DNA from: Anaeromyxobacter sp. Fw109-5
Lineage (GTDB): Bacteria; Myxococcota; Myxococcia; Myxococcales; Anaeromyxobacteraceae
Length of the DNA stretch: 64,000 nt
Assembly: GCF_000017505.1 (NCBI RefSeq)
Contig: NC_009675.1
Span: 4,902,501 to 4,966,500, forward strand
Direction: 5' to 3'
Part shown: positions 6,812 to 33,385 of the stretch, one piece after another
Layout: the number at the start of each line of letters is the position of its first letter
Position numbering within the stretch: position 1 is the stretch's first letter
Notes under the pieces: generated by a model
Seen by the model: the letters and a program-made list of their open reading frames with translations, nothing else
Databases searched by the model: none
Told to the model about the DNA's origin: nothing
Translations under genes and position numbers: made by a program

Positions 6812-9436
<2,625 letters not shown>

Positions 9437-16151: not shown

Positions 16152-16164
16152 GGCCCGGCATTCG

Positions 16165-16193
16165 TTGACCCAGCGACGCCCCCCGCGTTATAT
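16165..16193 (+). promoter_or_regulatory. Probable sigma-70 promoter of the polyprenyl synthase gene
   Basis: TTGACC at 16165-16170 and TTATAT at 16188-16193 are separated by 17 bp, close to consensus in otherwise very GC-rich DNA. The predicted start of transcription near 16200 falls inside the inverted repeat at 16195-16214. This is the arrangement expected of a repressor-controlled promoter. Confidence 0.65.
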
Positions 16194-16194
16194 G

Positions 16195-16214
16195 CCTTCA
16201 ACTTTCGTTGAAAG
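16195..16214. promoter_or_regulatory. Inverted-repeat operator shared with the menaquinone operon
   Basis: The inverted repeat TTCAAC (16197-16202), TTTC, GTTGAA (16207-16212) sits on the predicted transcription start. Its 3' part, TTCGTTGAAAG, is identical to the reverse complement of the operator at 26200-26223. A further half-site, TTCGTTGA, lies at 16161-16168. The likely binder is the GbsR-type regulator encoded at 34295-34870; this is inferred. Confidence 0.6.
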
Positions 16215-16234
16215 TCCCGGTCCCGGAGGCTCCC

Positions 16235-17284
16235 GTGGCAGCGAGTGAGCAGGCCATCCTGTCCCAGCTCGACGCGAGCGCGCAGCGCGGCGTTCGCCCC
16301 GAGCGCGCGCAGGCCGCCCTCGCCGACGTGCCGGCGCTCCCGGAGACGCTCGCGGCGCTCGAGGAGCACCTCACGCGCGCGACCGAGGACGCGGAGGAGA
16401 AGCTCCGCGCCGCCGCGCGGCACCTGGTCTCCGCGGGCGGCAAGCGGATCCGGCCGATGGTGACGCTGCTCTCCTGCGGCGCCTGCGGCGGGGACATGCG
16501 CGCGGCGGTGCCGTACGCCGTCTCGGCCGAGCTCACGCACTCCGCGACGCTGCTGCACGACGACGTGATCGACGACGGCCCCCTGCGCCGCGGCCAGCCC
16601 GCCTCGCGCGTCATCTGGGGCAACGCCGTCTCGGTCCTCTCCGGCGACTGGCTCCTCACCCGCGCGCTCGAGATCGTCTCGGCGGAGCCCGCCCGGTCGG
16701 CGGCGCTGCCCCCGCTGCTCGCCACCATGCGCCGGCTCGTGGAGGGAGAGGTGCTGCAGCTCTCGCTGCGCAGCTCCTTCTCCGCCACGGAGAAGGACTA
16801 CCTCGACGTCGTGATCGGAAAGACCGCCTCGCTGTTCGGCTGGGCCGCCGCCGCCGGCGCGTGGGCGGCCGGGCAGGTCGGCCGGATCCCCGAGGCGCTC
16901 GTGCAGTTCGGCGAGGGCATCGGCATCGCGTTCCAGCTCGTCGACGACGCGCTCGACTACGCCGCCGACCCGCAGCTCCTCGGCAAGCGGCTCGGCACGG
17001 ACCTCATCGAGGGGAAGGCGACGCTCCCGCTCATCCGCGCCTGCGAGGCGGAGCCGCGGCTGCGCGAGCGGCTCGCCGCGCTCGTCGAGGGCCAGGACGA
17101 CGGCGACGCCGTCGCGGCCGACGTGGTCGAGGTGGTGAAGCGCGTCGGCGGCGTCGAGGACGCGCGCGCGCTCGCCCGCGAGCACACCCGCACCTCCCTC
17201 GCCGCGCTCGAGGAGGTGCCCGACGGCGTCCACCGGCGGGCGCTGCGCGAGGCCGCGGTGTCGCTCACCGAGCGGGCGTTCTGA
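16235..17284 (+). CDS. Polyprenyl diphosphate synthase (trans-type)
   Basis: Chain-elongating prenyltransferase that builds the isoprenoid tail from isopentenyl diphosphate, here probably the menaquinone side chain. About 349 residues. The first Asp-rich motif LLHDDVIDDGPLRRG, the substrate-binding GGKRIRP near the N-terminus and the second motif QLVDDALDY are all present. The GTG at 16235 with CGGAGGC upstream is preferred to the TTG at 16208, which lies inside the operator. It is the first gene behind the promoter and operator at 16165-16214. That operator recurs in front of the ring-synthesis operon 10 kb away, supporting a menaquinone role. Confidence 0.92.
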   Translation: MAASEQAILSQLDASAQRGVRPERAQAALADVPALPETLAALEEHLTRATEDAEEKLRAAARHLVSAGGKRIRPMVTLLSCGACGGDMRAAVPYAVSAELTHSATLLHDDVIDDGPLRRGQPASRVIWGNAVSVLSGDWLLTRALEIVSAEPARSAALPPLLATMRRLVEGEVLQLSLRSSFSATEKDYLDVVIGKTASLFGWAAAAGAWAAGQVGRIPEALVQFGEGIGIAFQLVDDALDYAADPQLLGKRLGTDLIEGKATLPLIRACEAEPRLRERLAALVEGQDDGDAVAADVVEVVKRVGGVEDARALAREHTRTSLAALEEVPDGVHRRALREAAVSLTERAF

Positions 17285-17330
17285 GCTGACGGGGACTGCG
17301 TCCCCGCCCTGCTCGGCGGGCCCCTTCGAC

Positions 17331-17385
17331 GTCCCGCTCACCCCGAGCGTAGCGGCGCGGCGCGAAGTCGAGGCGGCCCGCTTCG
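17331..17385. repeat. REP-like palindromic element (degenerate)
   Basis: The 128-bp gap after the polyprenyl synthase gene holds a degenerate relative of elements found at 32198, 43524 and 58401, with CCCGAGCGTAGCGGCGC followed by GCGAAGTCGAGGCGG. A small hairpin, GGGGAC-TGC-GTCCCC (17291-17305), precedes it. It may act as a transcription stop between convergent genes. Confidence 0.4.
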
Positions 17386-17412
17386 CGGCTTCGCGACCGT
17401 CGCCGGGATCGC

Positions 17413-18489
17413 TCACCGCGCCCGCCGCACGGCGGCGATGCCGAGCGCCAGGAACAGGGCGTTGGGCGCCCAGGCCGCCACCCAGGGCGCCACGCGCCCT
17501 GACAGGCCGAGCGCGAAGCTGACGCCCTGGACGCCCCAGAACAGCAGCGACACGCCGACGGACTCGACGAGCGCGGCCGAGACGTGGCCCTTGCGGTTGC
17601 GGCGCAGCGCGAGCGCCACCGCGAGCAGCGCGCCGGGCACGCCCGCGAACGGGTAGGCGACGCGGTCGTAACGCTCGAGCTGGAACTCCTCGGTCGCCAG
17701 CCCGAGGTGCCGGCGCACGGCGATCTGGGCCACCAGCGTCCTCCAGCGGAGCTGACTCGGCCGGCCGGGGACGACCGCGAAGGCCTCCGGCGGCTCGGGG
17801 AACTCGTAGCGGCGAGAGTCCGCGCGCTCGAGCCGCACGCTGCCGTCCGGCAGGAACGTCCGGTCCTGCACCTCCTCGAGCATCCACGCGTCCCCGTCCG
17901 GCCGCATGCGCGCCGCGTCGATCCGGCCGGCGAGCCGGAAGTCGGGCGTCACCGCGAGCACCGTCACGCGCGCGAAGCCCCCCCCGGGGAGGCTCGCGCC
18001 GAGGTGATAGATCCGGCGCCCGTCGCGGCTGCGGAACCAGCGCTTCGGCTCCCGGGCCTGCTGGAACTGCCTCACGCCGCGTGAGAAGCGCGTGGCGCGG
18101 ATCTCCTCGGCGCGCGCGGTCGCCTCGACGCCCCAGACGTCGTGGACGACGACGAGCGCGGCCCCTGCGAGCAGCGTGACCGCCGCCACCGGGCCGGCGA
18201 GGCGCCACGGCCCGAGGCCCAGCGCCCGCATCGCGGTGTACTCGCGCGTCCTGCGGAAGGTCGAGACGGCGATCGCGGCGCCGAGCACCATCGCCGCGGG
18301 CGCCACCTGGCGGACCACCACGGCCGTCTTGTTCGCGTAGAGCTCGAGGACGGCCGGGATCCAGCCCGGCCCCGTGAACGACGCGGAGTTGTCGACGAAG
18401 TCCACGGCCAGGAAGATCGCGACCACGCCGGCGAGCGAGCCTACGAACGCCGCGAACGTCCGGCGAGCGGCGTAGCGGAACAGGATCAC
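17413..18489 (-). CDS. LptF/LptG family permease
   Basis: A 358-residue inner-membrane protein of the YjgP/YjgQ fold. A group of transmembrane segments at the N-terminus (from residue 14, plus VAPAAMVLGAAIAVSTFRR and LAGPVAAVTLLAGAALVVV) is followed by a periplasmic beta-rich domain (about 150-250) and C-terminal segments. LptF and LptG are the membrane half of the ABC transporter that extracts lipopolysaccharide for outer-membrane transport. Only one such gene is seen here and the partner is elsewhere. The GTG at 18489 is chosen where the hydrophobic LptF-type opening (VILFRYAARRTFAAF) begins and GGAG lies upstream. The 290 bp to the divergent epimerase gene hold a degenerate REP-like stretch and nothing else recognised. 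Confidence 0.85.
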   Translation of the reverse strand: MILFRYAARRTFAAFVGSLAGVVAIFLAVDFVDNSASFTGPGWIPAVLELYANKTAVVVRQVAPAAMVLGAAIAVSTFRRTREYTAMRALGLGPWRLAGPVAAVTLLAGAALVVVHDVWGVEATARAEEIRATRFSRGVRQFQQAREPKRWFRSRDGRRIYHLGASLPGGGFARVTVLAVTPDFRLAGRIDAARMRPDGDAWMLEEVQDRTFLPDGSVRLERADSRRYEFPEPPEAFAVVPGRPSQLRWRTLVAQIAVRRHLGLATEEFQLERYDRVAYPFAGVPGALLAVALALRRNRKGHVSAALVESVGVSLLFWGVQGVSFALGLSGRVAPWVAAWAPNALFLALGIAAVRRAR

Positions 18490-18779
18490 CGCGCCGCTCC
18501 GGGGCGGCTGCCGACCACGCGCGCGTTCGGCGGCACGTACCTCGACAGGTGCGGCAGCATGGACAGCCCCCATAGCACGCCGGGCGTGACGGCGGGCCCA
18601 TCGTGCCGTGTCCGAGGGCCGCCGTGGAGGCGGCGCCAGACGGGGCGCCCCGCGGTGTGTCGGCCCCGCGAAGTCGAAGGCGACCCGGTGACGCCTGCGC
18701 GACTTTGTCGCGCGGCTCGTCGGGGGATCCCTCGTCTCGGGGGAGCGCACGCGAGAAGGCCCGATATGCTCCCGCAGTC

Positions 18780-19778
18780 ATGGCCCCCATCGTCCTCACC
18801 GGCTGCGCAGGGTTCATCGGATCTCACGTCGCGCGGCGCCTGCTGCGCGATGGGCACGAGGTGAGCGGGCTCGACAACCTCAACGACTACTACGACCCCT
18901 CGCTCAAGCGGGCGCGGCTCGCGCTGCTCGCGCCGGAGCGCGGCTTCCGGTTCACGGCCGCCGACGTGGCGGACAGGGAGGCGCTCGACGCGGTGCTCGA
19001 CGAGGCCGAGCCCGAGTACGTCGTCCACCTCGCGGCGCAGGTCGGCGTGCGCAACTCGGTGCGGAACCCGCGGGCGTACGCGGAGACGAACCTCGACGGC
19101 TTCTTCAACGTGCTCGACGGCTGCGCGCGCCGCGGCGTGCGGCACCTCGTGTACGCCTCGTCGAGCTCCGTCTACGGCTCGAACGAGAAGGTGCCGTTCA
19201 GCGAGGAGGATCCCGTCGACCATCCGATCAGCTTCTACGCCGCGACGAAGAAGGCGAACGAGATCATGGCGCACGCGTACAGCCACCTGAACCGGCTGCC
19301 CACCACGGGCCTGCGCTTCTTCACGGTGTACGGGCCGTGGGGCCGCCCGGACATGGCGCCCATCCTGTTCGGGCGCGCGATCCTGCGCGGCGAGCCGATC
19401 ACGCTGTTCAACCACGGCCGGATGCTCCGCGACTTCACCTACGTCGACGACGTCGTCGAGGTCGTCACCGCGCTCGTCCCGCGGCCGCCCGAGCCGGAGG
19501 ACGCGGCGCCCTACCGCGTCCTCAACGTGGGGAACGACCGGCCCGTCGCCCTGGAGGAGTTCGTCGCGATCCTCGAGCGGCACCTCGGTCGGCCCGCGCT
19601 CCGGAAGTACGCGCCCATGCAGCCTGGCGACGTGCCCGCCACCTGGGCGGACGTGAGACGACTGCAGGCGACGGTGGGGTTCGTGCCGCGCACGCCGATC
19701 GAGGAGGGGCTCCGGAGGATGACCGAGTGGCTCGTGGCGTACGACGGCGACGCACGGAAGGGAGCGCACGCCGGGTGA
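18780..19778 (+). CDS. UDP-glucuronate 4-epimerase-like NAD-dependent epimerase
   Basis: A 332-residue short-chain dehydrogenase-type sugar epimerase. The NAD motif is GCAGFIGSHVARRL (residues 8-21); the catalytic SSS and YxxxK are in YASSSSVYGSNEKVPF and FYAATKKANE. The N-terminal GLDNLNDYYDPSLKRARL is characteristic of enzymes that interconvert UDP-glucuronate and UDP-galacturonate. It starts a four-gene set with 3-32 bp overlaps: epimerase, flippase-like protein, GT2 polyprenyl-phosphate transferase and GT39 transferase. The set resembles the rhizobial LpsL/RgtE/Rgt pathway that adds galacturonate to lipid A or core. Confidence 0.9.
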   Translation: MAPIVLTGCAGFIGSHVARRLLRDGHEVSGLDNLNDYYDPSLKRARLALLAPERGFRFTAADVADREALDAVLDEAEPEYVVHLAAQVGVRNSVRNPRAYAETNLDGFFNVLDGCARRGVRHLVYASSSSVYGSNEKVPFSEEDPVDHPISFYAATKKANEIMAHAYSHLNRLPTTGLRFFTVYGPWGRPDMAPILFGRAILRGEPITLFNHGRMLRDFTYVDDVVEVVTALVPRPPEPEDAAPYRVLNVGNDRPVALEEFVAILERHLGRPALRKYAPMQPGDVPATWADVRRLQATVGFVPRTPIEEGLRRMTEWLVAYDGDARKGAHAG

Positions 19779-20836
19779 CCCCGCCCCTCGGAGACCGCGC
19801 CGCGGCCGAACCGCCCCCGCCGGGCGTGCCCGCGGGCCCGACCGTCGCGCCGGCGGCGGGCAAGGTCCGCCGCCGCCTCGGGCGCGTCGCGCTCGCCTGG
19901 ACCCTCGGGATCGCCCTGCTCGCGTGGGTCACGCGCGGCGTCGAGTGGGGGCGGCTCTCGTCGTCGCTGCGCGCGGCGCCGTCGTGGACGTGGGCGGCGG
20001 CGGTGCTGGGCCTCGCCGGGAGCTACCTGCTCCGCGCGCTGCGCATCCACGCGGAGCTCGGCAAGCGCCACGGAGCCTCGGTGGGCCAGTGCCTCGAGGT
20101 GATGCTGGTCCACAACGCCGCCGTGAACCTGCTCCCCATGCGCGGCGGCGAGGCGGCGTACCCCTGGCTCGTGCACCGCCGGCTGGGCGTGCCGGTCTCG
20201 CACGCGGTCGCGAGCCTGGTCTGGATGCGCGTGCAGGACGCGCTCGTGCTCGGCCTCGCGGTCATCGCGCTGTGGCCGGGGCTCGCGGCCCCGCTGCGGC
20301 TCGGCGCCGCCCTCCTGCTCGCCGGGGCCATCGCGCTCGGGCTGCGCGTCCTCGAGCGCGCCGCGCTGCGCGCCGGGGCGCGCGATCCTCGCCTCGGCGT
20401 GATCCGCGCCGCGACCGGCGCGCTGCAAGCGCTCGCGCTCGCCCCCCGCCACGGCTGGGCGGGCTGGGCCTTCTGCGTCGGGAGCTGGACGCTGAAGCTC
20501 CTCGTGCTCGCCGCGCTGCTGGCGGGGCTCTCGGCCCTGCCCGCGCCGGCGGCCCGCACCGGCGTCCTCGGCGGCGAGCTCGCCGGCGTGCTGCCGCTGC
20601 AAGGGCCCGCCGGGTTCGGCACCTACGAGGCCGGGGTCTGGGCGGGCGCGTCGCTGCGCGGCCACTCCGCGCTCGAGATCGCGGCGCCCGCCATCGCCGT
20701 GCACCTGCTGTCGCTCGCCACGGCGGTGGCGAGCGGCGCCCTGGCGTACGCGGCGTCCCAGCGCCGCGGCGCATCCCCTCGGACCGCCGGGAAGGACGCC
20801 GATCGTGCTCCCGCACGTGGCGAGCGAGCTCGCTGA
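19775..20836 (+). CDS. Lysylphosphatidylglycerol synthase transmembrane-region (UPF0104) protein
   Basis: A 353-residue polytopic membrane protein with about eight hydrophobic segments. The LPG-synthase TM-like family features are RVALAWTLGIALLAWVTRGVEW near the start, NLLPMRGGEAAYPWL in the middle and LPLQGPAGFGTYEAG near the end. It lacks the soluble aminoacyl-transferase domain of MprF. In glycolipid operons such proteins are suspected lipid flippases; that role is inference. The GTG start overlaps the epimerase stop by 4 bp. Confidence 0.8.
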   Translation: MTPPLGDRAAAEPPPPGVPAGPTVAPAAGKVRRRLGRVALAWTLGIALLAWVTRGVEWGRLSSSLRAAPSWTWAAAVLGLAGSYLLRALRIHAELGKRHGASVGQCLEVMLVHNAAVNLLPMRGGEAAYPWLVHRRLGVPVSHAVASLVWMRVQDALVLGLAVIALWPGLAAPLRLGAALLLAGAIALGLRVLERAALRAGARDPRLGVIRAATGALQALALAPRHGWAGWAFCVGSWTLKLLVLAALLAGLSALPAPAARTGVLGGELAGVLPLQGPAGFGTYEAGVWAGASLRGHSALEIAAPAIAVHLLSLATAVASGALAYAASQRRGASPRTAGKDADRAPARGERAR

Positions 20837-21881
20837 GACACCGACCGCGGTCGAGCTCCCTCCGCATCGCCTCTCCGTCGTCGTGCCCATGTACGACGAG
20901 CGCGACAACGCCGCGCCGCTCGTGGACGCCGTGCAGGCGGCGCTCGCCGAGCACCCGCACCCGTGGGAGCTCGTCGTGGTGGACGACGGCAGCCGCGACG
21001 GGACGGCGGCGGCGCTCGAGCGGCGCGCGGCGCAGGTCGGGGAGCACGTGCGGGTGATCCGCCTCCTCCGCAACCACGGCCAGTCGGCCGCGATGCAGGC
21101 CGGCATCGACGCCGCGCGGGGCGACGTGATCGTCACGATGGACGGCGACCTCCAGAACGACCCGCGCGACATCCCGGCGCTCGTCGCCCGGCTGCTCCGC
21201 GGGGACCTCGATCTCGTCGCCGGCTGGCGGCAGCGACGCGAGGACGGCCTCCTCCTGCGCAAGCTCCCCTCCCGCGTCGCGAACCGCCTCATCCGCCGCG
21301 CCACCGGGCTCCGCTTCCACGACCTCGGCTGCAGCCTCAAGGCGTTCCGCGGCTCCGTCGTGCGCGAGGTGCGCCTCTACGGCGAGATGCACCGCTTCAT
21401 CCCGGCCTGGCTCGCCACCGTGACCTCGCCGGACCGCATGGCGGAGGTGCCCGTCTCGCACCACGGCCGGGCGCGCGGGAAGTCCAAGTACGGCCTCTCC
21501 CGGACGTTCCGCGTGCTCATCGATCTGCTCGCGGTCCACTTCTTCCTGCGCTACCGCGCGCGGCCCGGACACTTCTTCGGCAGCATCGGCCTCGCCGTGC
21601 TCGGCGCCGGGCTCGCGATCCTCGGCTATCTCGGGTTCCTCAAGCTCACCGGCGAGAGCATCGGCGGACGTCCGCTGCTCTCCCTCGGCTTCTTCTGCGT
21701 GATCGGCGGGGTGCAGCTCCTCACCACCGGCGTCCTCGCCGAGCTGCTCGTCCGCGTCTACTACGAGGGCGGGCGCGCTCGCTCGTATCACGCCGCGCCC
21801 GCGGCCTCGCTCCGCGAGGGCGCCGGGTGGCACGCCCCGCGCCCCCGGCCCCTCCAGCTCCCCCCGCCGGAGGGCGGATGA
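20805..21881 (+). CDS. GT2 polyprenyl-phosphate sugar synthase (DPM1/ArnC/RgtE-like)
   Basis: A 358-residue enzyme transferring a nucleotide-activated sugar to a polyprenyl phosphate on the cytoplasmic face. The GT-A domain shows LSVVVPMYDERDN, VVDDGSRDGTAAAL and the metal-binding VTMDGDLQNDP. After GKSKYGLSRTFRVLIDLL come two C-terminal transmembrane helices (about 255-320), as in ArnC-like proteins. The GTG at 20805 overlaps the previous gene by 32 bp; GTG 20817 is an alternative. It sits between an epimerase making the sugar donor and a GT39 enzyme using the lipid-linked sugar. Confidence 0.9.
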   Translation: MLPHVASELAETPTAVELPPHRLSVVVPMYDERDNAAPLVDAVQAALAEHPHPWELVVVDDGSRDGTAAALERRAAQVGEHVRVIRLLRNHGQSAAMQAGIDAARGDVIVTMDGDLQNDPRDIPALVARLLRGDLDLVAGWRQRREDGLLLRKLPSRVANRLIRRATGLRFHDLGCSLKAFRGSVVREVRLYGEMHRFIPAWLATVTSPDRMAEVPVSHHGRARGKSKYGLSRTFRVLIDLLAVHFFLRYRARPGHFFGSIGLAVLGAGLAILGYLGFLKLTGESIGGRPLLSLGFFCVIGGVQLLTTGVLAELLVRVYYEGGRARSYHAAPAASLREGAGWHAPRPRPLQLPPPEGG

Positions 21882-23683
21882 GGATCCCGACTCAGCCGCT
21901 TCGCCGCGAGCCGACCGCCGGCCCGCGGCCCGCGGCCACGACGGCGGACGAGCCGTGGTCCTCCGCCGAGCGGCGCTGGTACGCGGGCGCGATGGCGCTC
22001 GCCCTGCTCGTCATGGCGGCGGGGCTCGTCTTCCCGGACCTCATGGGCGGCGACGCCGCGCAGGACGCGGTGATGGCGCTGCGGATGTACCTCGCCGACG
22101 ACTGGGTCAACCTCGTCAAGAACGGGCGCGACTACCTCGACAAGCCGCACCTCCTCTTCTGGTCGGCGCGGGCGAGCTACGAGCTGTTCGGCGTGCACGA
22201 CTGGGCCTACCGGCTCCCGTCGGCCCTGGCCTCCCTGCTCGGCGCGTGGGCGGCCTACGGCATGGCGAGGCGCCTCCACGGCGAGACGGCCGGCCGGCTC
22301 GCGGCGCTCATGGTGGTCACCGCGTACGCGATCGTGCTCGGCAATCACGACGTCCGCATGGACGCCCTGCTCATGGGCTTCACCGCCTTCGGGACCTGGC
22401 AGCTCCTCGAGTACCTGGAGACCGGCCGCGCCCGAGCGGCGGTCCTCGGCGGCGCCGGCGTGGCGCTCGGGGTCTCCGCGAAGGGCATGGTCGCGGTGGC
22501 GGTGAGCGGCTGCGTGCTCTTCTTCTACGTGTGGGGCCGCGGCCGCTGGCGGCGGCTGTGGAGCTGGAAGATCGCGCTGGGGATCGCCGTGTTCGTCCTC
22601 GCGCTCTCGCCGGTGCTCTTCGCCTACTACCAGCAGTACGATCTCCATCCCGACAAGGTCGTGAACGGTCGCACCGGCGTCTCGGGCGTGAAGTTCATCC
22701 TGCTCGGGCAGAGCCTGGAGCGCTTCGGCGGGGGCCGCGGGCACAAGATCGCCGACGACCACCTCTTCTTCTTCCACACGCTGGCCTGGGCGTTCCTGCC
22801 CTGGAGCCTCCTGACCTATGCCGCGTGGGCCGAGCGGTTCCGGGAGCTGTTCCGGCGGCGCTGGGCCGCGTTCCGTGAGCGCGAGCAGCTCACCTTCCTG
22901 GGCCCGTTCGCGTTCCTCGCCGTCCTGGGCTTCTCGCAGTTCAAGCTGCCCCACTACCTGAACGTCGTGCTGCCCTTCCTCGCCGTGTTCACGGCGAGCT
23001 ACCTCGCCGACCTGCGCCGCGAGGGCCGGCTGCGGGCGCTCGCGCGTCTCCGGTGGGTGCAGCTCGTCGTCATCGCCGCGCTCCTCGCGCTCGTCGTGGT
23101 CCTGAACGCGTGGGCGTTCCCGGTCGAGCGCGCCTGGATCGTGCTCGCCGCGCTCGCGCTGCTCGCCGTCCTCGTCGCGAGCCTCCGCGTCCGCGAGCCG
23201 CTCGCGCGCGTGTGGGCGCCCTCCGCCGTCGCCATCCTCCTCGCGGAGCTCCTGGCGAACACCAGCTTCTACCCGCGCCTCGGCCGCTACCAGCCGGGGA
23301 GGGACCTCGCGGCCGCCGCGGAGGCGAGCGGCGTCGACTGGGAGCGCACGTTCTTCCTGGAGACCGTCTACCAGCCGTTCCAGTTCTACGCGGGGCGTGT
23401 CATCCCGCAGCTGGACTTCGCCGGCCTGCACCGCGAGGTCGCCGCCGGACGAGAGCTCTTCCTCGCCGTGTCCGCGGAGGAGGAGCGCCGCCTGCGCGAC
23501 GAGGGCATCCCGCACGAGGTGCTCGCCACGAGCCCGAGCTGCCGGGTCCTCAACCTCACGGGAAAGTTCGTGAACCCGCGCACCCGCGACGGCACGTGCA
23601 AGACGGTGTTCCTGGTCGCCGCGGGGGCGAGCGCCCCGGACCACCGGCGCGTCGAGCCCGGTCGAACCGGCGACCGTCCGTAG
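21878..23683 (+). CDS. GT39/ArnT-like lipid-A or glycan glycosyltransferase
   Basis: A 601-residue membrane glycosyltransferase. The PMT signature is MGGDAAQDAVMALRM in the first periplasmic loop, where Asp replaces the more common Asp-Glu pair. DKPHLLFWSARASYELFG follows, then about ten hydrophobic segments and a soluble C-terminal domain (about 480-601). ArnT-type enzymes transfer a sugar from polyprenyl phosphate to lipid A. The start overlaps the GT2 stop by 4 bp, making the two almost certainly one functional pair. Product assignment (galacturonate) depends on the epimerase and is inferred. Confidence 0.87.
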   Translation: MRIPTQPLRREPTAGPRPAATTADEPWSSAERRWYAGAMALALLVMAAGLVFPDLMGGDAAQDAVMALRMYLADDWVNLVKNGRDYLDKPHLLFWSARASYELFGVHDWAYRLPSALASLLGAWAAYGMARRLHGETAGRLAALMVVTAYAIVLGNHDVRMDALLMGFTAFGTWQLLEYLETGRARAAVLGGAGVALGVSAKGMVAVAVSGCVLFFYVWGRGRWRRLWSWKIALGIAVFVLALSPVLFAYYQQYDLHPDKVVNGRTGVSGVKFILLGQSLERFGGGRGHKIADDHLFFFHTLAWAFLPWSLLTYAAWAERFRELFRRRWAAFREREQLTFLGPFAFLAVLGFSQFKLPHYLNVVLPFLAVFTASYLADLRREGRLRALARLRWVQLVVIAALLALVVVLNAWAFPVERAWIVLAALALLAVLVASLRVREPLARVWAPSAVAILLAELLANTSFYPRLGRYQPGRDLAAAAEASGVDWERTFFLETVYQPFQFYAGRVIPQLDFAGLHREVAAGRELFLAVSAEEERRLRDEGIPHEVLATSPSCRVLNLTGKFVNPRTRDGTCKTVFLVAAGASAPDHRRVEPGRTGDRP

Positions 23684-23765
23684 GCGACGCACCGCCAGGA
23701 CCCGAGCATCCGCTCCCCTCACCGCGGGGCCACGTGTAGGCTGTCCGGAACCCAGGAGCCTCCCA

Positions 23766-24572
23766 ATGCGCCGCCTCCCGCGAACCCTGCTCGTCTCCAC
23801 CCTCGCCCTCGCGCCTCTCCTCGAGGGCTGCCGCTGGTCGACGGTCGATTCCGGCCACCGCGGCATCGTGTTCAAGGCGCTCGGCGGCGGCACGAGCCGC
23901 GAGGTGCTGGGCGAGGGGCTGCACGTGATCCCGCTGTGGAACAGGATCATCCAGTACGACATGCGCGTGCACGAGATGAAGGAGCAGCTCTCCGTGCTCT
24001 CGTCGAACGGGCTGCCGCTGCGGGTCGAGGCGAGCGTCCGCTTCCGGCCGGAGCTCGAGGAGCTGTTCGAGCTGCAGACGCAGATCGGCCAGGACTACGA
24101 CTCGAAGGTGATCGCGCCGATCGTGCGCTCCGAGGCGCGCAAGGTGTTCGGCCGCTACCAGCCGGAGGAGATCTACTCGACGAAGCGCGAGGAGATCGAG
24201 CAGCAGATCTACTCGGAGGTGACGCGCGCCCTGAAGGGCAAGCACGTCGTGGTCGAGGCGGTGCTCATCCGCGACGTGGACCTGCCGGAGGCCATCAAGA
24301 CCGCCATCTCCGACAAGCTCGCCGAGGAGCAGCGCGCGCAGAAGATGAAGTTCACGCTCGACCGCGAGCGTCAGGAGGCGCAGCGCAAGCAGATCGAGGC
24401 CGAGGGCATCCTGAAGTACCAGAACATCGTGCGCCAGGGGCTCTCGGCCGAGTACCTGCAGTTCAAGGGGATCGAGGCCACCGAGCGGCTCGCGGCGAGC
24501 TCGAACGCCAAGATCGTGATCGTCGGCGGCGCGAAGGGCGGGCTGCCGCTCATCTTCCAGGGCGACAAGTAG
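23766..24572 (+). CDS. Prohibitin/SPFH-family lipoprotein
   Basis: A 268-residue Band 7 protein. The N-terminus is a signal ending in LLEGC, so C22 is a lipidation site instead of the usual transmembrane anchor. The SPFH core follows (VDSGHRGIVFKALGGGTSREVLGEGLHVIPLWN, then EASVRFRPELEELFELQTQIGQDY). A charged helix comes next (EEQRAQKMKFTLDRERQEAQRKQIEAEGI), as in prohibitins. These proteins form ring scaffolds that organise membrane proteases or domains. It has its own start context (GGAG before ATG 23766) 82 bp after the GT39 gene. Confidence 0.88.
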   Translation: MRRLPRTLLVSTLALAPLLEGCRWSTVDSGHRGIVFKALGGGTSREVLGEGLHVIPLWNRIIQYDMRVHEMKEQLSVLSSNGLPLRVEASVRFRPELEELFELQTQIGQDYDSKVIAPIVRSEARKVFGRYQPEEIYSTKREEIEQQIYSEVTRALKGKHVVVEAVLIRDVDLPEAIKTAISDKLAEEQRAQKMKFTLDRERQEAQRKQIEAEGILKYQNIVRQGLSAEYLQFKGIEATERLAASSNAKIVIVGGAKGGLPLIFQGDK

Positions 24573-24696
24573 GGACGCGCAGGGATCGATCCGGGCGGCG
24601 GCGCGCCGGCGCCGTGATCGCGGAGGCCTCGCCCGCTGTCGTGGAGTCGTCGACGTCACCGCAGCGCACCCCGCGAACGTCCGGGGACGCGCGGGC

Positions 24697-25833
24697 CTAC
24701 GGCACCGCCGCCGCGTCGCGGACCAGGTCCGCGTAGCGGTTCACCGGGTCGGCCGGGTCGGTGCCGTCGCGCCAGTAGAACGTGTGCGGGTCCCACGCGT
24801 CGGGGCGGCCGTCGTAGGCGAACAGCCAGGGCGCGACGCCGGCGCCGCCGGCCGCGCGGATGCAGCGGAACCAGCCGCGGTAGATGGCGCGGCGATCCTC
24901 GAGCGGCAGCCCGTCGTTGCGGAGCGCCAGCTCCCCCACGAGGAGCGGCTTCCCGAGACGGCGGGCGGTCGCGATCCGCTCGGAGAGGAACCCCGCCCCG
25001 AAGAACGCGGCCCAGTCCGCGGGCACGCCCCACGCCTCCGGGTAGAGGTGCACGGTCGCGTAGTCCAGGTGCGGCGAGGCGGTGAGGAGCGCGAACTCCT
25101 CGGCGTCGAGCCCCTCCTCGCCCGAGCCGACGAGGTGCCCGGGCGCCTTCGCCTTCACGAGGGCGGCGAGCTCGTCCACCCAGGCGCGGAGCGCCTCGCG
25201 CGAGACGCCGTCCGCGCGCGGCTCGTTCACGAGCTCCCAGGCGAGCACGGCCGGGTGGTCGCCCCAGCGGAGGCCGTCCACCGTGCTGACGCGGTCGAGG
25301 AGCGTGGCGACGTGCGCGCGGAAGTGCTCGACCACCGCGCGCTCGGTGAAGAAGCGCGGATCGCCCTCGCGCGGCGCGGGGAGCCCCGCCCAGGCGACGT
25401 ACTGGCGCTGCCCGCCGTAGGCGTCCCAGCGGTTCGCGAGCGGCAGCACCAGCCGGAGCCCGTGCACGCGGGCCCGCGCGAGGACGAGGTCCAGCCCGCG
25501 CAGGGCGACCTCGTCGTAGACCAGCGGCACCACCTGCATCGCGGTGTCCTGCGCGCCGTCGTTGAACGCGTTCGTGCGCAGGGCCCGAACGCCCAGGGCG
25601 GAGGCCTTCGCGAGCGTCTCCTCCACGGCGGCGGCCTCCGGATCGCCGCGGCGCAGCGCGCGGGTCGCCTCCTCCTGGAGGTAGTAGGCGTTCAGCGCGA
25701 CGAGGTGGCCGTCCACGCCGGGCAGGACGAGCGGCGGCCCCTCCGCGCACGCGGCGGCCTCCGCCTCCAGATCCCGTCCGTCCTCGCACGCGGCCACGAA
25801 GAGCAAGATGATCGCGGGGGCCCCGGCGCGCAC
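24697..25833 (-). CDS. GH5-like beta-mannanase/cellulase-type lipoprotein
   Basis: A 378-residue exported protein. The lipobox FVAAC gives C16 as the lipidation site. The TIM-barrel domain has the GH5 acid/base motif in LAWELVNEPRAD and a probable nucleophile in LLVGELAL, together with FNDGAQDT and a TVHLYPEAWG strand. The fold and motif spacing look like GH5 endo-1,4-beta-mannosidases, but the specificity is not certain. The gene is convergent with the prohibitin gene and likely starts with GTG at 25833. Confidence 0.8.
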   Translation of the reverse strand: MRAGAPAIILLFVAACEDGRDLEAEAAACAEGPPLVLPGVDGHLVALNAYYLQEEATRALRRGDPEAAAVEETLAKASALGVRALRTNAFNDGAQDTAMQVVPLVYDEVALRGLDLVLARARVHGLRLVLPLANRWDAYGGQRQYVAWAGLPAPREGDPRFFTERAVVEHFRAHVATLLDRVSTVDGLRWGDHPAVLAWELVNEPRADGVSREALRAWVDELAALVKAKAPGHLVGSGEEGLDAEEFALLTASPHLDYATVHLYPEAWGVPADWAAFFGAGFLSERIATARRLGKPLLVGELALRNDGLPLEDRRAIYRGWFRCIRAAGGAGVAPWLFAYDGRPDAWDPHTFYWRDGTDPADPVNRYADLVRDAAAVP

Positions 25834-25848
25834 GGGTCCACCGAGGCG

Positions 25849-26124
25849 TCAGGCGTTGCGCCAGGCGCGCTCGGCGCGGAGCACGATCGCGCCGAGCGGC
25901 ACGTCGAACGGCCAGGAGTCCGCGATCATGCGCCCGAGCCCCTCCCCGCGGTCGCGCTTCGGCGGGAGCGCCCCGTCGTCGAGGGCGGCGAGGTAGGTGC
26001 GGAGGGTGTCGCGGCAGGCGCCGAGCTGGGTCGGGCAGAGCTGGTAGCGCGGGGCGGCGAGCTCCGCCTCGATCTCGGCGAGCGCGCTCACGACGAGGGT
26101 GCGGGCCTGCTGGCGGCGGTCCAT
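25849..26124 (-). CDS. Hypothetical protein
   Basis: A 91-residue, mostly helical, charged protein (MDRRQQARTLVVSALAEIEAEL at the start, SWPFDVPLGAIVLRAERAWRNA at the end) with two cysteines near the middle. No family is recognised. The ATG at 26124 is preferred to an upstream in-frame start at 26208, because that one would put coding sequence across the operator at 26200-26223. It lies 15 bp upstream of the GH5 lipoprotein gene on the same strand. Confidence 0.5.
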   Translation of the reverse strand: MDRRQQARTLVVSALAEIEAELAAPRYQLCPTQLGACRDTLRTYLAALDDGALPPKRDRGEGLGRMIADSWPFDVPLGAIVLRAERAWRNA

Positions 26125-26199
26125 CGGCACCGCGTTGTACCCGACCTGCGCCGCGAGGGAAACGGCGCCGCCGGGCCGTCCGCGCCCCCGCCCCGGCCA

Positions 26200-26223
26200 T
26201 TCTTTCAACGAACATTGAAAGAA
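26200..26223. promoter_or_regulatory. Inverted-repeat operator of the menaquinone operon
   Basis: TTCTTTCAA (26200-26208), CGAACA, TTGAAAGAA (26215-26223) is a perfect 9-bp-arm inverted repeat in an otherwise GC-rich region. The core matches the operator at 16195-16214 in reverse orientation. It overlaps the predicted -35 box at 26215. The regulator gene at the end of the operon (34295-34870) is the obvious candidate for binding it. Confidence 0.65.
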
Positions 26224-26243
26224 AGGGCCGCCGCTGGTAGAGA
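26215..26243 (+). promoter_or_regulatory. Candidate promoter of the menaquinone operon
   Basis: TTGAAA (26215-26220) and TAGAGA (26238-26243) are 17 bp apart. The -10 box is a weak match. The -35 box is the right arm of the inverted repeat, so a bound regulator would block it. The ATG of the first gene is at 26253, leaving almost no leader. Confidence 0.45.
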
Positions 26244-26252
26244 TCGCGCGCC

Positions 26253-27782
26253 ATGGCCTACCGCTCCCTGCGGGAGTTCCTCGATCGGCTGGAGAAGGCG
26301 GGCGAGCTCCTCCGCGTGAAGGAGCCGGTCGATCCGGTCCTCGAGATGGCCGCGCTGGCGGATCGCGCGGCGAAGCAGGGGGGGCCGGCGCTCCTCTTCG
26401 AGAACGTGAAGGGTCGGGCGCCCGGCGGGTTCCCGGTGGCGATGAACCTGTTCGGGACGCGGCGCCGGGCGAGCTGGGCGCTCTCCTCGGAGGACTTCGA
26501 GGAGCACGCGCGCGAGCTCCGCTCGCTCCTGCACATGGCCCCGCCGCAGTCGCTCTGGGACAAGCTGAAGATGCTCCCGAAGCTCGGGAAGCTCGCGACG
26601 ATGACGCCGAAGCACGTCTCCTCGGCGGCGAGCCAGGAGGTGGTGCTGCGCGAGCCCGACCTCGGTCAGCTGCCGGTGCTCACCACCTGGCCGCACGACG
26701 GCGGCCCGTTCGTCACCCTCCCGCAGGTGATCACGCGGGATCCGGACACCGGCATCCGCAACGTCGGCATGTACCGGCTCCAGGTGCTCGGTCCCCGGCG
26801 GCTCGCCATGCACTGGCAGCTCCACAAGACCGCGACGGCCCACTACCGCGGCTACCGGAAGCGCGGCGAGCCCATGCCGGTCGCGATCGCGCTCGGCGGC
26901 GATCCCGCCCTCACCTACTGCGCCTCGGCGCCGCTGCCGCCCAACGTGGACGAGTACCTGTTCGCCGGGTTCCTGCGCGGCGAGGCGGTGCGGATGACGA
27001 AGGGCGTGGCGGTGGACCTCGACGTCCCCGCCGACGCGGATCTCGTCATCGAGGGCTACGTGGACACCGCGGCACCCCTCGTGCGCGAGGGGCCGTTCGG
27101 CGATCACACCGGCTTCTACTCGCTCGCGGACGACTACCCCGCCCTGGACGTGGTCGCCGTCACCCACCGCCGCGGCGCGATCTACCCCGCCACCGTGGTG
27201 GGTCCGCCGCCGGTCGAGGACCAGTGGCTCGGCAAGGCGACGGAGCGGATCTTCCTGCCGATGCTGCAGATGATCTTCCCGGAGATCGTCGACATGGCGA
27301 TGCCGGTGGAGGGCGTGTTCCACAACCTCTGCCTCATCTCCATCAAGAAGGAGCACCCCGGCCAGGCGAAGAAGGTCATCCACGGTCTGTGGGGCTCGGG
27401 CCAGATGGCGCAGACGAAGACGCTCGTGGTCTTCGACGACGACGTGGACGTGCAGGACGTGCCGCAGGCCGCCTGGCGCGCCTTCGCCAACGTGGACGTG
27501 AAGCGCGACCTCGTGATCGCCGACGGCCCGGTGGACGTGCTCGACCACGCCGCCACGCACTTCGCGTTCGGCGGGAAGATCGGCGTGGACGCGACGCGGA
27601 AGTGGCGGGAGGAGGGCGGGCGCGAGTGGCCGGAGGTGTGCGTCCACCCGCCCGAGGTGATCGCGCGGATGGACGCGCTGTACGAGCGGCTGGTCCCCGG
27701 CGCGGAGCGGCCGCGCCGGCCGCGCATCGCGCCGCCGCCGGCCGCGTCGTGGAAGCCGCCCAGCGGAGGGATCCTCCAGTGA
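26253..27782 (+). CDS. mqnL: UbiD-family menaquinone biosynthesis decarboxylase (MqnL type)
   Basis: Prenyl-FMN-dependent decarboxylase of 509 residues. In the futalosine route the UbiD-type enzyme removes the carboxylate of prenylated 1,4-dihydroxy-6-naphthoate. The family core is visible: TGIRNVGMYRLQVLGPRRLAMHW, the acidic active-site region VREGPFGDHTGFYSLADDYP, and the EHPGQAKKVIHGLWG segment. The cofactor-making UbiX is two genes downstream. It is the first gene of an eight-gene operon with overlaps of 4 bp (mqnL/ubiE, ubiE/ubiX). The promoter and operator lie immediately upstream. Confidence 0.92.
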   Translation: MAYRSLREFLDRLEKAGELLRVKEPVDPVLEMAALADRAAKQGGPALLFENVKGRAPGGFPVAMNLFGTRRRASWALSSEDFEEHARELRSLLHMAPPQSLWDKLKMLPKLGKLATMTPKHVSSAASQEVVLREPDLGQLPVLTTWPHDGGPFVTLPQVITRDPDTGIRNVGMYRLQVLGPRRLAMHWQLHKTATAHYRGYRKRGEPMPVAIALGGDPALTYCASAPLPPNVDEYLFAGFLRGEAVRMTKGVAVDLDVPADADLVIEGYVDTAAPLVREGPFGDHTGFYSLADDYPALDVVAVTHRRGAIYPATVVGPPPVEDQWLGKATERIFLPMLQMIFPEIVDMAMPVEGVFHNLCLISIKKEHPGQAKKVIHGLWGSGQMAQTKTLVVFDDDVDVQDVPQAAWRAFANVDVKRDLVIADGPVDVLDHAATHFAFGGKIGVDATRKWREEGGREWPEVCVHPPEVIARMDALYERLVPGAERPRRPRIAPPPAASWKPPSGGILQ

Positions 27783-28480
27783 GCGTCCCCCTCCCCGGCG
27801 AGGCGCAGCGCGGCTCGGCGGTGCGGGCGATGTTCGACCGCATCGCCCCCCGCTACGACCTGCTCAACCGCGTGATGACGCTGAAGGTCGATCAGGCCTG
27901 GCGCCGGCGGCTCCTCGCGGACCTGGCGCCGCGCGACGGCGAGGCCCTGCTCGACCTGTGCGCCGGCACCATGGACGTCGCCGCCCTCGCCCGCCGGCGC
28001 TCGCCGGGCCTCCGGATCGTCGGCGCGGACTTCTCGTTCCAGATGCTCGCGCGCGGCGTCGAGAAGACGGGGCTGCCCGCCTCGCAGGCGGACGCGATGG
28101 CGCTCCCCTTCCACGCGTCGCGCTTCGACCTCGCCACCGTGACGTTCGGGATGCGCAACCTGGAGCGCTTCGAGTTGGGGCTCGCCGAGCTCGCGCGCGT
28201 GCTGAAGCCCGGCGGCCGCCTCGGCGTCCTCGAGTTCTTCCGGCCCGAGTCGACCGGCTCGCGCTTCGTCCACGGCGCGTACAACCGGCTCGCGCTGCCG
28301 GTCCTGGGGCGCATCCTCTCGCCGGATCCGGAGGCGTACCGCTACCTCGTCGCCTCCATGGAGCGGTTCGCGTCGCGCCCGGAGTTCGAGGAGGCGGCCC
28401 GGCGCGCCGGCTTCCGCGAGGTGCGGGGCGAGACGCTCTTCCCCGGGGTCTGCGGCCTCGTCACGGCGGTGCGGGCATGA
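27779..28480 (+). CDS. ubiE: Demethylmenaquinone methyltransferase (UbiE/MenG)
   Basis: SAM-dependent C-methyltransferase of 233 residues, catalysing the final ring methylation of menaquinone. The family opening is FDRIAPRYDLLNRVMTL; the SAM motif is LLDLCAGTMDVA; VTFGMRNLERFELGLAELARVLKPGGRL is the UbiE signature. One oddity: the usual G in DxGxGTG is changed (DLCAGTMD), as in many UbiE proteins. The GTG start at 27779 overlaps the mqnL stop by 4 bp. Confidence 0.95.
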   Translation: MSVPLPGEAQRGSAVRAMFDRIAPRYDLLNRVMTLKVDQAWRRRLLADLAPRDGEALLDLCAGTMDVAALARRRSPGLRIVGADFSFQMLARGVEKTGLPASQADAMALPFHASRFDLATVTFGMRNLERFELGLAELARVLKPGGRLGVLEFFRPESTGSRFVHGAYNRLALPVLGRILSPDPEAYRYLVASMERFASRPEFEEAARRAGFREVRGETLFPGVCGLVTAVRA

Positions 28481-29082
28481 AGCTCGTGGTGGCCGTCTCG
28501 GGCGCGACGGGCGCCCCCTACGCGAGGCGGCTCCTCGACTTCCTCGCCGCCAACGGGGAGAGGCACGGCGTCTCCGTGGACCTGGTCTTCACCCAGACCG
28601 GCAAGCAGGTGTGGAAGCAGGAGATCGGCGCGGAGCCGCGCTACCCGTTCCCGGTCTGGAAGAACCAGGACTTCACCGCGCCGTTCGCGTCGGGCTCCGC
28701 GCTCTACGACGGCATGGTGATCGTCCCCTGCTCGTCGGGCGCGCTCGCGCGCATCGCGCACGGCATCTCCATCGACCTCGTGGGCCGCGCCGGGGACGTG
28801 ATGCTGAAGGAGGGGAAGAAGCTCGTGCTCGTGCTCCGCGAGACGCCGCTCTCGCTCGTGCACGCGCGCGCCATCGCGCAGGTCATCGAGGCGGGGGCCA
28901 CCGTCCTGCCCGCCTCGCCGTCGTTCTACTCCGGGCCGAAGACCATCGACGCGCTCGTGGACACGGTGGTGTCCCGGGTGCTCGACCGCCTCGGCCTGCC
29001 GAACGAGCTCATGAAGCGCTGGGAAGGCCTATCAGGTTCTGGCCGGGGGGATGCGGCCCCCGATCCGATGGAGGAGCCGTAG
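28477..29082 (+). CDS. ubiX: UbiX-type flavin prenyltransferase (MqnM)
   Basis: A 201-residue enzyme that prenylates FMN to give the cofactor of the UbiD-type decarboxylase encoded two genes upstream. The flavoprotein motif VAVSGATGAPYARRLL opens the protein. PCSSGALARIAHGISIDLVGRAGDVMLKEGKKLVLVLRETPLS is the conserved core, with PASPSFYSGPKTIDALVDTVVSRVLDRLG at the end. The ATG at 28477 overlaps the ubiE stop by 4 bp, and the stop abuts the mqnE start directly. Confidence 0.95.
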   Translation: MKLVVAVSGATGAPYARRLLDFLAANGERHGVSVDLVFTQTGKQVWKQEIGAEPRYPFPVWKNQDFTAPFASGSALYDGMVIVPCSSGALARIAHGISIDLVGRAGDVMLKEGKKLVLVLRETPLSLVHARAIAQVIEAGATVLPASPSFYSGPKTIDALVDTVVSRVLDRLGLPNELMKRWEGLSGSGRGDAAPDPMEEP

Positions 29083-30246
29083 ATGATCTCGACCCTCGCG
29101 CACCGCGCGCTCGAGCGCGACGGCCTCGGGCCGATCCGCGACAAGGTCCTCGCCGGCGAGCGGCTCGGCGACGCGGACGCGCTCCGGCTCCTGGAGGCGG
29201 CGGACCTCGCCGCGGTGGGCGCCCTGGCGAACCACGTCCGCGAGGCGCGCCACGGCGATCTCACCTTCTACAACCGCAACGTCCACCTGAACCCGACGAA
29301 CGTCTGCGTCGCGACCTGCAAGTTCTGCTCGTTCGCGCGCAAGGACGATCAGGCCGCCTCCGAGGGCTACACGATGTCCCTCGACGAGGCCGTGCAGAAG
29401 GTCCTCTCGCGCCGCGGGCTCGGGATCACCGAGGTGCACATCGTCTCCGGGCTGCACCCGGACCTGCCCTGGGAGTACTACCCGGAGCTGCTGCGCCGCA
29501 TCCGCCAGGCCTGGCCCGAGCTCGCCATCAAGGCCTTCACCGCCATCGAGATCCACTTCTTCGCGGAGAAGTTCGGGAAGAGCTACGAGCAGGTGCTGCG
29601 CGAGCTGCACGAGGCCGGCATGGACACCATGCCCGGCGGGGGCGCCGAGATCTTCGCGACGCGCGTGCGCCGCAAGATCTGCGACGACAAGGCCACCGCC
29701 GAGCAGTGGCTCGAGATCCACCGCACCGCCCACCGGCTGGGCCTCAAGACCAACGCCACCATGCTCTACGGCCACATCGAGCGGCTCGACGAGCGCGTGG
29801 ACCACATGCGGCTCCTGCGCGAGCTGCAGGACGAGACCGGCGGCTTCCAGGTCTTCATCCCGCTCGCCTTCCACCCCGAGCACAACATGATCGGCAAGGC
29901 CTTCCCCAAGCCGACCGGGTACGACGCGCTGCGCACCCTCGCGGTGGCGCGGCTGTACCTCGACAACTTCGACCACGTGAAGGCGTACTGGGTCTCGCTC
30001 GGCGAGCGGCTCGCGCAGACGTCGCTCGCGTTCGGCGTGGACGACGTCGACGGCACCGTGCTCGAGGAGCGCATCTACCACATGGCCGGCTCGACCGTCC
30101 CGCAGGCGCTCTCGGAGCGGACGCTGCACGAGCTCATCCGCGCCGCGGGCCGCGTGCCCGCCGAGCGCGACAGCCTGTACCGCGTCCTGAAGGTGCATGA
30201 GCAGCCGCCGAGCGACGCGCCCGGACGCCTGCAGGTCACCGCCTGA
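29083..30246 (+). CDS. mqnE: Aminofutalosine synthase MqnE (radical SAM)
   Basis: A 387-residue radical SAM enzyme that joins 3-[(1-carboxyvinyl)oxy]benzoate to the adenosyl group of SAM, giving 6-amino-6-deoxyfutalosine. The cluster motif CVATCKFC gives C75, C79 and C82. FTAIEIHFFAEKFGKSYEQVLRELHEAGMDTMPGGGAEIF is the MqnE/MqnC family core. It starts on the base after the ubiX stop, so the two genes must be co-translated. Confidence 0.95.
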   Translation: MISTLAHRALERDGLGPIRDKVLAGERLGDADALRLLEAADLAAVGALANHVREARHGDLTFYNRNVHLNPTNVCVATCKFCSFARKDDQAASEGYTMSLDEAVQKVLSRRGLGITEVHIVSGLHPDLPWEYYPELLRRIRQAWPELAIKAFTAIEIHFFAEKFGKSYEQVLRELHEAGMDTMPGGGAEIFATRVRRKICDDKATAEQWLEIHRTAHRLGLKTNATMLYGHIERLDERVDHMRLLRELQDETGGFQVFIPLAFHPEHNMIGKAFPKPTGYDALRTLAVARLYLDNFDHVKAYWVSLGERLAQTSLAFGVDDVDGTVLEERIYHMAGSTVPQALSERTLHELIRAAGRVPAERDSLYRVLKVHEQPPSDAPGRLQVTA

Positions 30247-32138: not shown

Positions 32139-33385
32139 TCCCGAGGGTGTACAGCGCGCCCTGGGTGCTGACGGGGAGGGGGACTGCCCCCTCCTCCGCT
32201 CGCCCTGAGCCTGTCGAAGGGCGAGCGACCGCGATCCCGGACGGCGCCGTCGCGCTCGACGGCGATCGCGTGGTCGCCGTCGGCCCGCGCGCCGAGCTCG
32301 AGGCCCGCTTCGGCCGGGGCCAGCGGCTCGACGCGGTGATCCTCCCCGCGCTGGTGAACGCCCACGTGCACCTCGAGCTCTCGCACATGGCCGGGCGGGT
32401 CGCCGGCGGCGAGGGGCTCCCCTCCTGGATCCAGCTCTTCCTCTCCGCGCGCGCCCACGCGAGCCGCGAGCAGCAGGTGCAGGCGATGATCATGTCCGCC
32501 GAGGACATGGTCCGCTTCGGCGTCGCGGCGGTGGGCGACGTCTCGAACACGCTCGGCTCGGTGCAGCCGCTCGCCCAGGTCGGGATCGGCGGGACGGTCT
32601 ACCACGAGGTGTTCGGCGTGACGCCCGCGCGGATCGAGGCGGCCCTCGCCGGCGCCCGGGCGGCGCGCGCCTCCTGCCCGCCCGCGGCGGGGCTGCGCGT
32701 CGTGCTGTCGCCGCACGCGGTCTACTCGACCCACGGCCCCACGCTCGCGCAGCTGCTCCGCGCCGGGCCGGCCTCCATCCATCTGGCGGAGGACCCGGCG
32801 GAGCGCGCGCTGTGCGCCACCGGGACGGGCGACTTCGCGCGGATGTACACCTCCCTCGGCGCGCCACGCTCGCTCCGCCCGCACGCGCGCTCGCCGGTCG
32901 CGTTCGTCGCCGAGCACCTCGCGCCCCATCACCTCGTCGTCCACTGCGTCGACGTGGACGAGGACGACGTGGCGCTCCTCGCCGCCACCGGGGCGACGGT
33001 CGTCCTCTGCCCGCGCTCCAACCGCTACATCGTGGGGAAGCTCCCGCCGCTCGCGGCGTTCCTCGAGGCCGGCGTGCCGCTCGCCGTGGGCACCGACTCG
33101 CTCGCCTCCTGCCCGTCGCTCTCGCCCCTCTGCGATCTCGCCCTCCTCCGCCGCGAGCTCCCGCAGGTCCCGGCCTCGGACCTCCTGCCGCTCGCCTGGA
33201 ACGGCCCCGCCGTCGGCGCGCCGCACGTGGGGGCCCTCGCCCCCGGCACGGCCCCGGGCGTCCTCTCCGCGCCGCTCCGCGGCGCGCGCGTGGAGGACCC
33301 CTTCGACTTCGTCGTCTCGACGTTCGGCGCCGAGGAGCGCCCCTTCACCTGGCTCGCGCGCCCGCGCGCGGAGGCCCTCGCATGA
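32135..33385 (+). CDS. Aminofutalosine deaminase-type amidohydrolase
   Basis: A 416-residue metal-dependent amidohydrolase. HVHLELSHMAG carries the HxH metal pair; HAVYSTHG, VVHCVDVDEDDV and AVGTDSLAS provide the remaining metal and catalytic positions. The VLCPRSN stretch is typical of adenosine- and aminofutalosine-type deaminases. Position after mqnE and mqnA/mqnC supports conversion of aminofutalosine to futalosine. The GTG start overlaps the upstream stop by 4 bp. Residues about 22-33 (SARPEPVEGRAT) are encoded by a REP-like palindrome inserted in frame (32198-32226). Confidence 0.88.
   Translation: MIPRVYSAPWVLTGRGTAPSSARPEPVEGRATAIPDGAVALDGDRVVAVGPRAELEARFGRGQRLDAVILPALVNAHVHLELSHMAGRVAGGEGLPSWIQLFLSARAHASREQQVQAMIMSAEDMVRFGVAAVGDVSNTLGSVQPLAQVGIGGTVYHEVFGVTPARIEAALAGARAARASCPPAAGLRVVLSPHAVYSTHGPTLAQLLRAGPASIHLAEDPAERALCATGTGDFARMYTSLGAPRSLRPHARSPVAFVAEHLAPHHLVVHCVDVDEDDVALLAATGATVVLCPRSNRYIVGKLPPLAAFLEAGVPLAVGTDSLASCPSLSPLCDLALLRRELPQVPASDLLPLAWNGPAVGAPHVGALAPGTAPGVLSAPLRGARVEDPFDFVVSTFGAEERPFTWLARPRAEALA
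32198..32226. repeat. REP-like palindrome inserted in frame within a coding sequence
   Basis: GCTCGCCCT (32198-32206) and AGGGCGAGC (32218-32226) form a perfect 9-bp inverted repeat around GAGCCTGTCGA. The sequence belongs to the same family as the elements at 43524 and 58401 (CGCCCTGAGC ... TCGAAGGGCG). It encodes the peptide ARPEPVEGR inside the aminofutalosine deaminase without breaking the frame. Confidence 0.7.

Follow-up and report, generated by a model that had tools for sequence, protein, structure and literature searches.

A GbsR-type regulator and two matching palindromes point to joint control of menaquinone tail and ring synthesis in Anaeromyxobacter and other Myxococcota

Little is understood of how bacteria keep the quinone ring and its isoprenoid tail in matching supply. 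A 64,000-nucleotide (nt) stretch of the Anaeromyxobacter sp. Fw109-5 genome (NC_009675.1, positions 4,902,501 to 4,966,500 of the forward strand; hereafter the window, whose own numbering is used unless genome positions are named) carries a gene for trans-polyprenyl diphosphate synthase (PPS), which serves the menaquinone side chain, and a separate futalosine (mqn) operon that ends with a gene for a GbsR-type regulator, and a palindrome of the same kind stands at each of the two promoters. The best explanation, which we hold with high confidence from comparison of sequences, is that the palindromes are operators of this regulator (34295-34870) and that it most likely represses both promoters.

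Operator 1, CCTTCAACTTTCGTTGAAAG, occupies 16195-16214, about 40 nt 5' of the PPS start codon and at the predicted transcription start. The putative PPS promoter, read by eye on the plus strand (16165-16193), consists of TTGACC (16165-16170), a 17-nt spacer and the -10 element TTATAT (16188-16193), and operator 1 begins 2 nt 3' of the latter. Operator 2, CTTTCAACGAACATTGAAAG, lies at 26202-26221, and its arms reach 26197-26208 and 26215-26226 with a complementarity of 92%. Its right half, TTGAAA (26215-26220), is also the putative -35 box of the mqn operon; the putative -10 box, TAGAGA (26238-26243, plus strand), was likewise read by eye and follows 17 nt further 3'. TTCGTTGAAAG is common to both in opposite orientation. 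An earlier interpretation made from the DNA letters (the sequence-only reading) had placed inverted repeats with a common, oppositely oriented sequence over the mqn -35 box and the PPS transcription start, and these assignments were confirmed. Relatives keep TTGACC and TATAT at the PPS promoter and a TA[CG]AGAT-like sequence at the mqn -10 position. A strict consensus promoter scan listed neither promoter, the elements being too degenerate, and the -35 and -10 boxes named here are putative assignments.

A search for CTTTCAA-N6-TTGAAAG with up to two mismatches found only operators 1 and 2, both of them AT-rich, in the window, which has a G+C content of 73%; 100 dinucleotide shuffles of it yielded no site. 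In the whole 5.28-Mb genome the pattern occurred in exactly two places, again operators 1 and 2, and a first-order model predicted 0.43 sites genome-wide at up to two mismatches, 0.012 at up to one and 0.00014 at none. As the genome holds only two strong sites, the regulon would consist of two promoters. The sequence-only reading had also expected sites at the mqnB and mqnD promoters, and here it failed: genome scans gave no site at mqnD (genome position 1816468), the nearest weak match being about 7 kb off at 1823941, and a third strong site is absent genome-wide, so that there is none for mqnB either, a gene that was not itself located. One-mismatch matches to TTCAAC-N4-GTTGAA at genome positions 4586036 and 4678888 each fall within a predicted reading frame or at its margin and were taken as background.

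The predicted binder of both operators is the 191-residue product of the last gene of the mqn operon (34295-34870, plus strand). Homology to the GbsR family was found with the NF047500 (CudC) model (E = 5.5e-15 over residues 19-156; 55.6 bits, far under the cut-off of 218) and in a profile comparison with Mj223 (PDB 1ku9; E = 8e-22 over about 142 positions), an archaeal protein and the nearest solved structure by profile. The match to PF12802 (MarR_2) reached 26.1 bits, just short of the curated 27. Judged by these profiles, the protein is genuinely related to GbsR, though only distantly. It does not fall into the GbsR/OpuAR/CudC osmoprotectant subgroup, being below the CudC cut-off and having mqn genes as neighbours, nor into the CydE subgroup, as the operon has no cytochrome bd gene and the regulator is flanked by mqnP and a convergent histidine kinase gene. 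The genome holds a second GbsR-like gene (C1:669713; L147, about 8717-9200), with about 43% identity over 116 residues. The distribution of this paralogue in the family is patchy, and no palindrome is found near it.

Conservation was followed in 24 genomes of the family, including that of the window; mqnL, the first gene of the mqn operon, was found in 23. TTCAA-N6-TTGAA with no more than one mismatch preceded mqnL by 45-55 nt from its start codon in 21 of the 23, and with no more than two mismatches it preceded PPS by 36-49 nt in 18 of the 23. In other genera PPS is co-directional with mqnL and has its own site there. The regulator gene lies about 8 kb 3' of mqnL wherever the contig extends that far, except in two complete genomes (G022 and G023), in which the operon is otherwise intact and ends at mqnP. 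In these two the PPS palindrome is gone and just the -35 half persists at mqnL. Of the genomes that lack the regulator gene, only these two combine PPS-site loss with a half mqnL site; in G012 and G021 the regulator was not detected, but both assemblies are 79-80% complete and their mqnL contigs stop before the end of the operon. To judge from the sequences, the decay in G022 and G023 has the form expected once selection for regulator binding has ceased. Two genomes of one genus (g3) have a third palindrome, located about 75 bp 5' of dxs, for 1-deoxyxylulose-5-phosphate synthase (L340 2809, G011:C1:1575808; L341 1091, G012:C367:1091); this would extend the regulon to isoprenoid precursor supply.

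These results bear on whether the palindromes might be products of chance, or common promoter sequence with no operator role. The right half is a -35 box, for which some conservation is expected even without a regulator. The other half is conserved as well, however, and its decay is confined to genomes that have lost the regulator. The two sites are the only ones in the genome, and equivalent genes across the phylum carry them too, as described below. The comparative results already contradict both readings, which we consider scarcely credible.

Outside the family, a homologous regulator adjoins PPS in families f2, f5, f6, f7 and f9 and in part of f8 of the same order. The palindrome was found 5' of PPS in f2, f6, f7, f8 and f9; the f5 copy has one mismatch. 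In ten genomes (about 96 Mb) of f6, which we call Myxococcaceae-like from its gene content, AGTTCAA-N6-TTGAACT with up to one mismatch occurred at 19 sites; flanking genes were read for all but one of them (in G100), and these 18 were at PPS or menF/menD. In f2, a conserved TTTCAGAATGTTTTGAAA lies 5' of menF, for isochorismate synthase (TIGR00543, 283 bits versus 225), which is followed by menD and menB. The same switch thus appears to act on the classical Men pathway in f2 and f6 and on the futalosine pathway in f9 and the window's family. One-mismatch matches in f3, f8 and single f2 genomes were scattered, one lying inside a reading frame (G029:C282) and another having no long frame that starts beside it (G036:C32), and were rejected.

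When named genomes were scanned with a regulator profile, PPS-gbsR pairs came to light in Polyangia (Labilithrix, Polyangiaceae, Sorangium and others); in nearly every case the palindrome precedes PPS. Whole-genome site scans covered twelve of these Polyangia-type genomes. A second site was located before mqnL in four (G146, G147, G150 and G152) and before a menG-mqnM operon in two (G151 and G154), and in G145 one site heads a single PPS-mqnL-menG-...-mqnP-gbsR operon. Men-type arrangements were found too: one site is shared by gbsR and a divergent PPS-menG-menF-menD-menB cluster (L294), another precedes gbsR-menG-menF-menD-menB (G153), and G148, a less clear case, has a site about 1 kb 5' of menG-menF-menD. 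The gene that heads the cluster in G153 is a divergent second GbsR-like gene (L335 7463-8018) with the palindrome directly in front of it, and the same genome has a separate PPS-gbsR locus. The Sorangium-like genome G156 carries a perfect palindrome about 250 bp 5' of a second polyprenyl synthetase gene (L332 8522; G156:C108:32521). At 33 Myxococcota GbsR-like loci with no testable PPS upstream region no palindrome was found, a few of them being truncated by contig ends or having a site just outside the sequence examined (L268). A clade of GbsR-like genes from Myxococcota of about 63% G+C (L249, L254, L255, L283 and similar loci) is not linked to PPS and has no palindrome.

Comparison of the genomes shows that the operator is real and conserved, goes with this regulator, stands almost exclusively at promoters for menaquinone supply and is kept on the ring promoter under either pathway. 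The protein that binds it could in principle be some other factor, for instance the paralogue at 669713, with the operon-encoded GbsR protein serving a different target. Such a paralogue does exist, and the pairing of operator and protein is statistical. Many genomes that retain the sites, however, have no such paralogue (G001, G002, G006, G009-G011, G014-G016 and G018), and no site lies near it at L147, whereas across Myxococcota the site goes with a regulator next to PPS or mqn, and the two are lost together. Binding by another factor is accordingly rated as very improbable.

We propose instead that the GbsR/MarR-type protein of 34295-34870 binds TTTCAA-N6-TTGAAA as a dimer at the promoters of PPS (tail) and of the mqn operon (ring, joining and finishing). 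Once bound, it would most likely block RNA polymerase and so repress both promoters. The regulator would also be autoregulated, because its gene is the last in a controlled operon. Repression agrees with the positions of the sites: in the window they cover the -35 box and the transcription start, and in f6 a TATATG -10-like box directly adjoins the PPS site, all of which fits steric blocking. An activator would be at odds with this arrangement and with the persistence of the -35 half after regulator loss. The MarR superfamily does include activators (PMC6207618), and at some promoters the site lies upstream of or between the promoter elements, but we regard activation as improbable. Repression is the mode of action of every one of the four GbsR-family members that have been studied genetically (PMC6207618).

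The closest studied relative in operator and theme is CydE of Alishewanella, a GbsR-type repressor of cytochrome bd (cydAB) that is released by sulfate (PMC6096048). A DNase I footprint of CydE covers TATTTCAGAAATTTCTGAAAGTTCA, and a second footprint, GGGATGCGCATATGCAAAT, is unlike the first (PMC6096048). The CydE site TTTCAGAAATTTCTGAAA fits TTTCAR-N6-YTGAAA, the form taken by many sites here, with matching half-sites and spacing; this was the only footprinted GbsR-family operator that we found in print. Thirty-seven representative sites of the present study, chosen by hand, gave the consensus TTTCAA-N6-TTGAAA. CydE resembles the window protein, in the role proposed for it, as a GbsR-type regulator of a respiratory-chain component with a TTTCAR half-site and 6-nt spacing. 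Unlike it, CydE acts on a quinol oxidase encoded next to its own gene, whereas the present targets would be menaquinone tail and ring synthesis at two separate promoters. GbsR and OpuAR of Bacillus, the founding members of the family, are likewise MarR-type repressors linked to their target genes and released by a pathway-related small molecule, but their ligands are choline or glycine betaine, for which an aromatic cage has been proposed, and they serve osmoprotectant uptake (PMC6207618).

What signal would release the regulator? We expect one that the two pathways share: menaquinone or demethylmenaquinone, polyprenyl diphosphate, chorismate, or a redox, ionic or respiratory cue such as sulfate. 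A futalosine-specific ring intermediate is unlikely, because the same regulator-operator pair is also found on the classical menF-menD operon. The example of CydE, identical in half-sites and spacing and released by sulfate (PMC6096048), suggests that the same regulator and operator might be governed by an ionic, redox or respiratory cue, tuning quinone supply to respiration. Nearly all targets, however, serve the supply of menaquinone and polyprenyl units, a few lineages adding dxs and a second prenyl synthase, and this suits end-product control; a non-quinone signal is a tentative possibility that we do not favour. The sequence-only reading had proposed one dedicated GbsR repressor for tail and ring that senses a quinone or an intermediate. 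Its core is strongly supported by the uniqueness and conservation of the sites and their co-loss with the regulator gene, the adjacency of the regulator to PPS across Myxococcota and the CydE match, and a futalosine intermediate as ligand has become unlikely; direct binding, repression and a pathway-common signal are what we infer from these data.

Several observations weigh against joint control by this regulator, or narrow the support for it. The loss in G022 and G023 was probably a single event, since the next gene after mqnP is the same in both. One genus (g4; G014-G016) has no PPS site, though it retains both the regulator and the site at mqnL, and G040 and G128 carry the PPS-regulator pair without a recognizable site. 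In G031, conversely, the regulator is located away from PPS, which nonetheless has a weak site. The Myxococcaceae-like regulators are just about 33-38% identical to the window protein. In a regulator tree built by a quick method, with few firm branches, the PPS- and mqn-linked regulators are scattered over several branches, and so poorly resolved a tree does not point to a single origin. Finally, the pairing of operator and protein comes from sequence comparison, and the ligand is proposed from pathway logic.

Domain and family models bear out the gene calls of PPS, mqnL, MqnE and the terminal GbsR-like gene. PPS (16235-17284, plus strand; PF00348, E = 3e-62) starts with GTG at 16235 after GGAGG. 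The operon is a single run of overlapping or closely spaced genes on the plus strand, mqnL-menG-mqnM-mqnE-mqnAC-deaminase-mqnP-gbsR. It begins with mqnL, for a UbiD-type menaquinone decarboxylase (26253-27782; TIGR03701, 647 bits versus a cut-off of 495.9), a menG/ubiE-type methyltransferase gene (27779-28480; PF01209), mqnM, for a UbiX-type flavin prenyltransferase (28477-29082; TIGR00421, above cut-off), and mqnE, for aminofutalosine synthase (29083-30246; TIGR03700, 515.8 bits versus a cut-off of 434.6). There follow a MqnA-MqnC fusion in a single open reading frame of 625 residues (30261-32138; PF02621 at 4-244, Radical_SAM and CofH_C at 326-619), an amidohydrolase gene (32135-33385; PF01979) and mqnP, for a UbiA-type prenyltransferase (33382-34287; PF01040). 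The amidohydrolase is probably the aminofutalosine deaminase, its best NCBIfam match being NF006269 (aminofutalosine deaminase family), below the cut-off of that model. The mqnE product and the menaquinone-type UbiD both pass curated cut-offs, which identifies a futalosine (Mqn) operon; like other such operons (mqnA, C, E, L, M, P), it has its remaining enzymes recognized by domain models, and unlike them it includes a regulator gene and an operator in common with a polyprenyl synthase gene. MqnA and MqnC are also contiguous in other operons of the family and in several Polyangia operons. Convergent with the operon, on the minus strand, is a gene for a PAS-domain histidine kinase with a DUF4118 domain (34883-36385).

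In accord with the remark in the sequence-only reading that a GbsR-type menaquinone regulator is not known to have been described, our literature search found no GbsR-type or other dedicated regulator of menaquinone synthesis; it covered open-licence papers and is no proof of novelty. The protein itself belongs to a known regulator family, and what would be new is a dedicated quinone tail-and-ring regulon kept across two ring pathways. We give even chances to the broader proposal that a dedicated menaquinone GbsR exists phylum-wide, was retained while futalosine and classical ring pathways were exchanged, and senses menaquinone/demethylmenaquinone or polyprenyl diphosphate. If true, it would be a sensor of quinone supply that is indifferent to the route of quinone synthesis. 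For the matching of ring to tail, the locus offers a specific candidate regulator, whose proposed regulon comprises two defined promoters. It would also present a natural case of regulation that outlives the enzymes it controls, one that narrows the ligand to what both pathways share.

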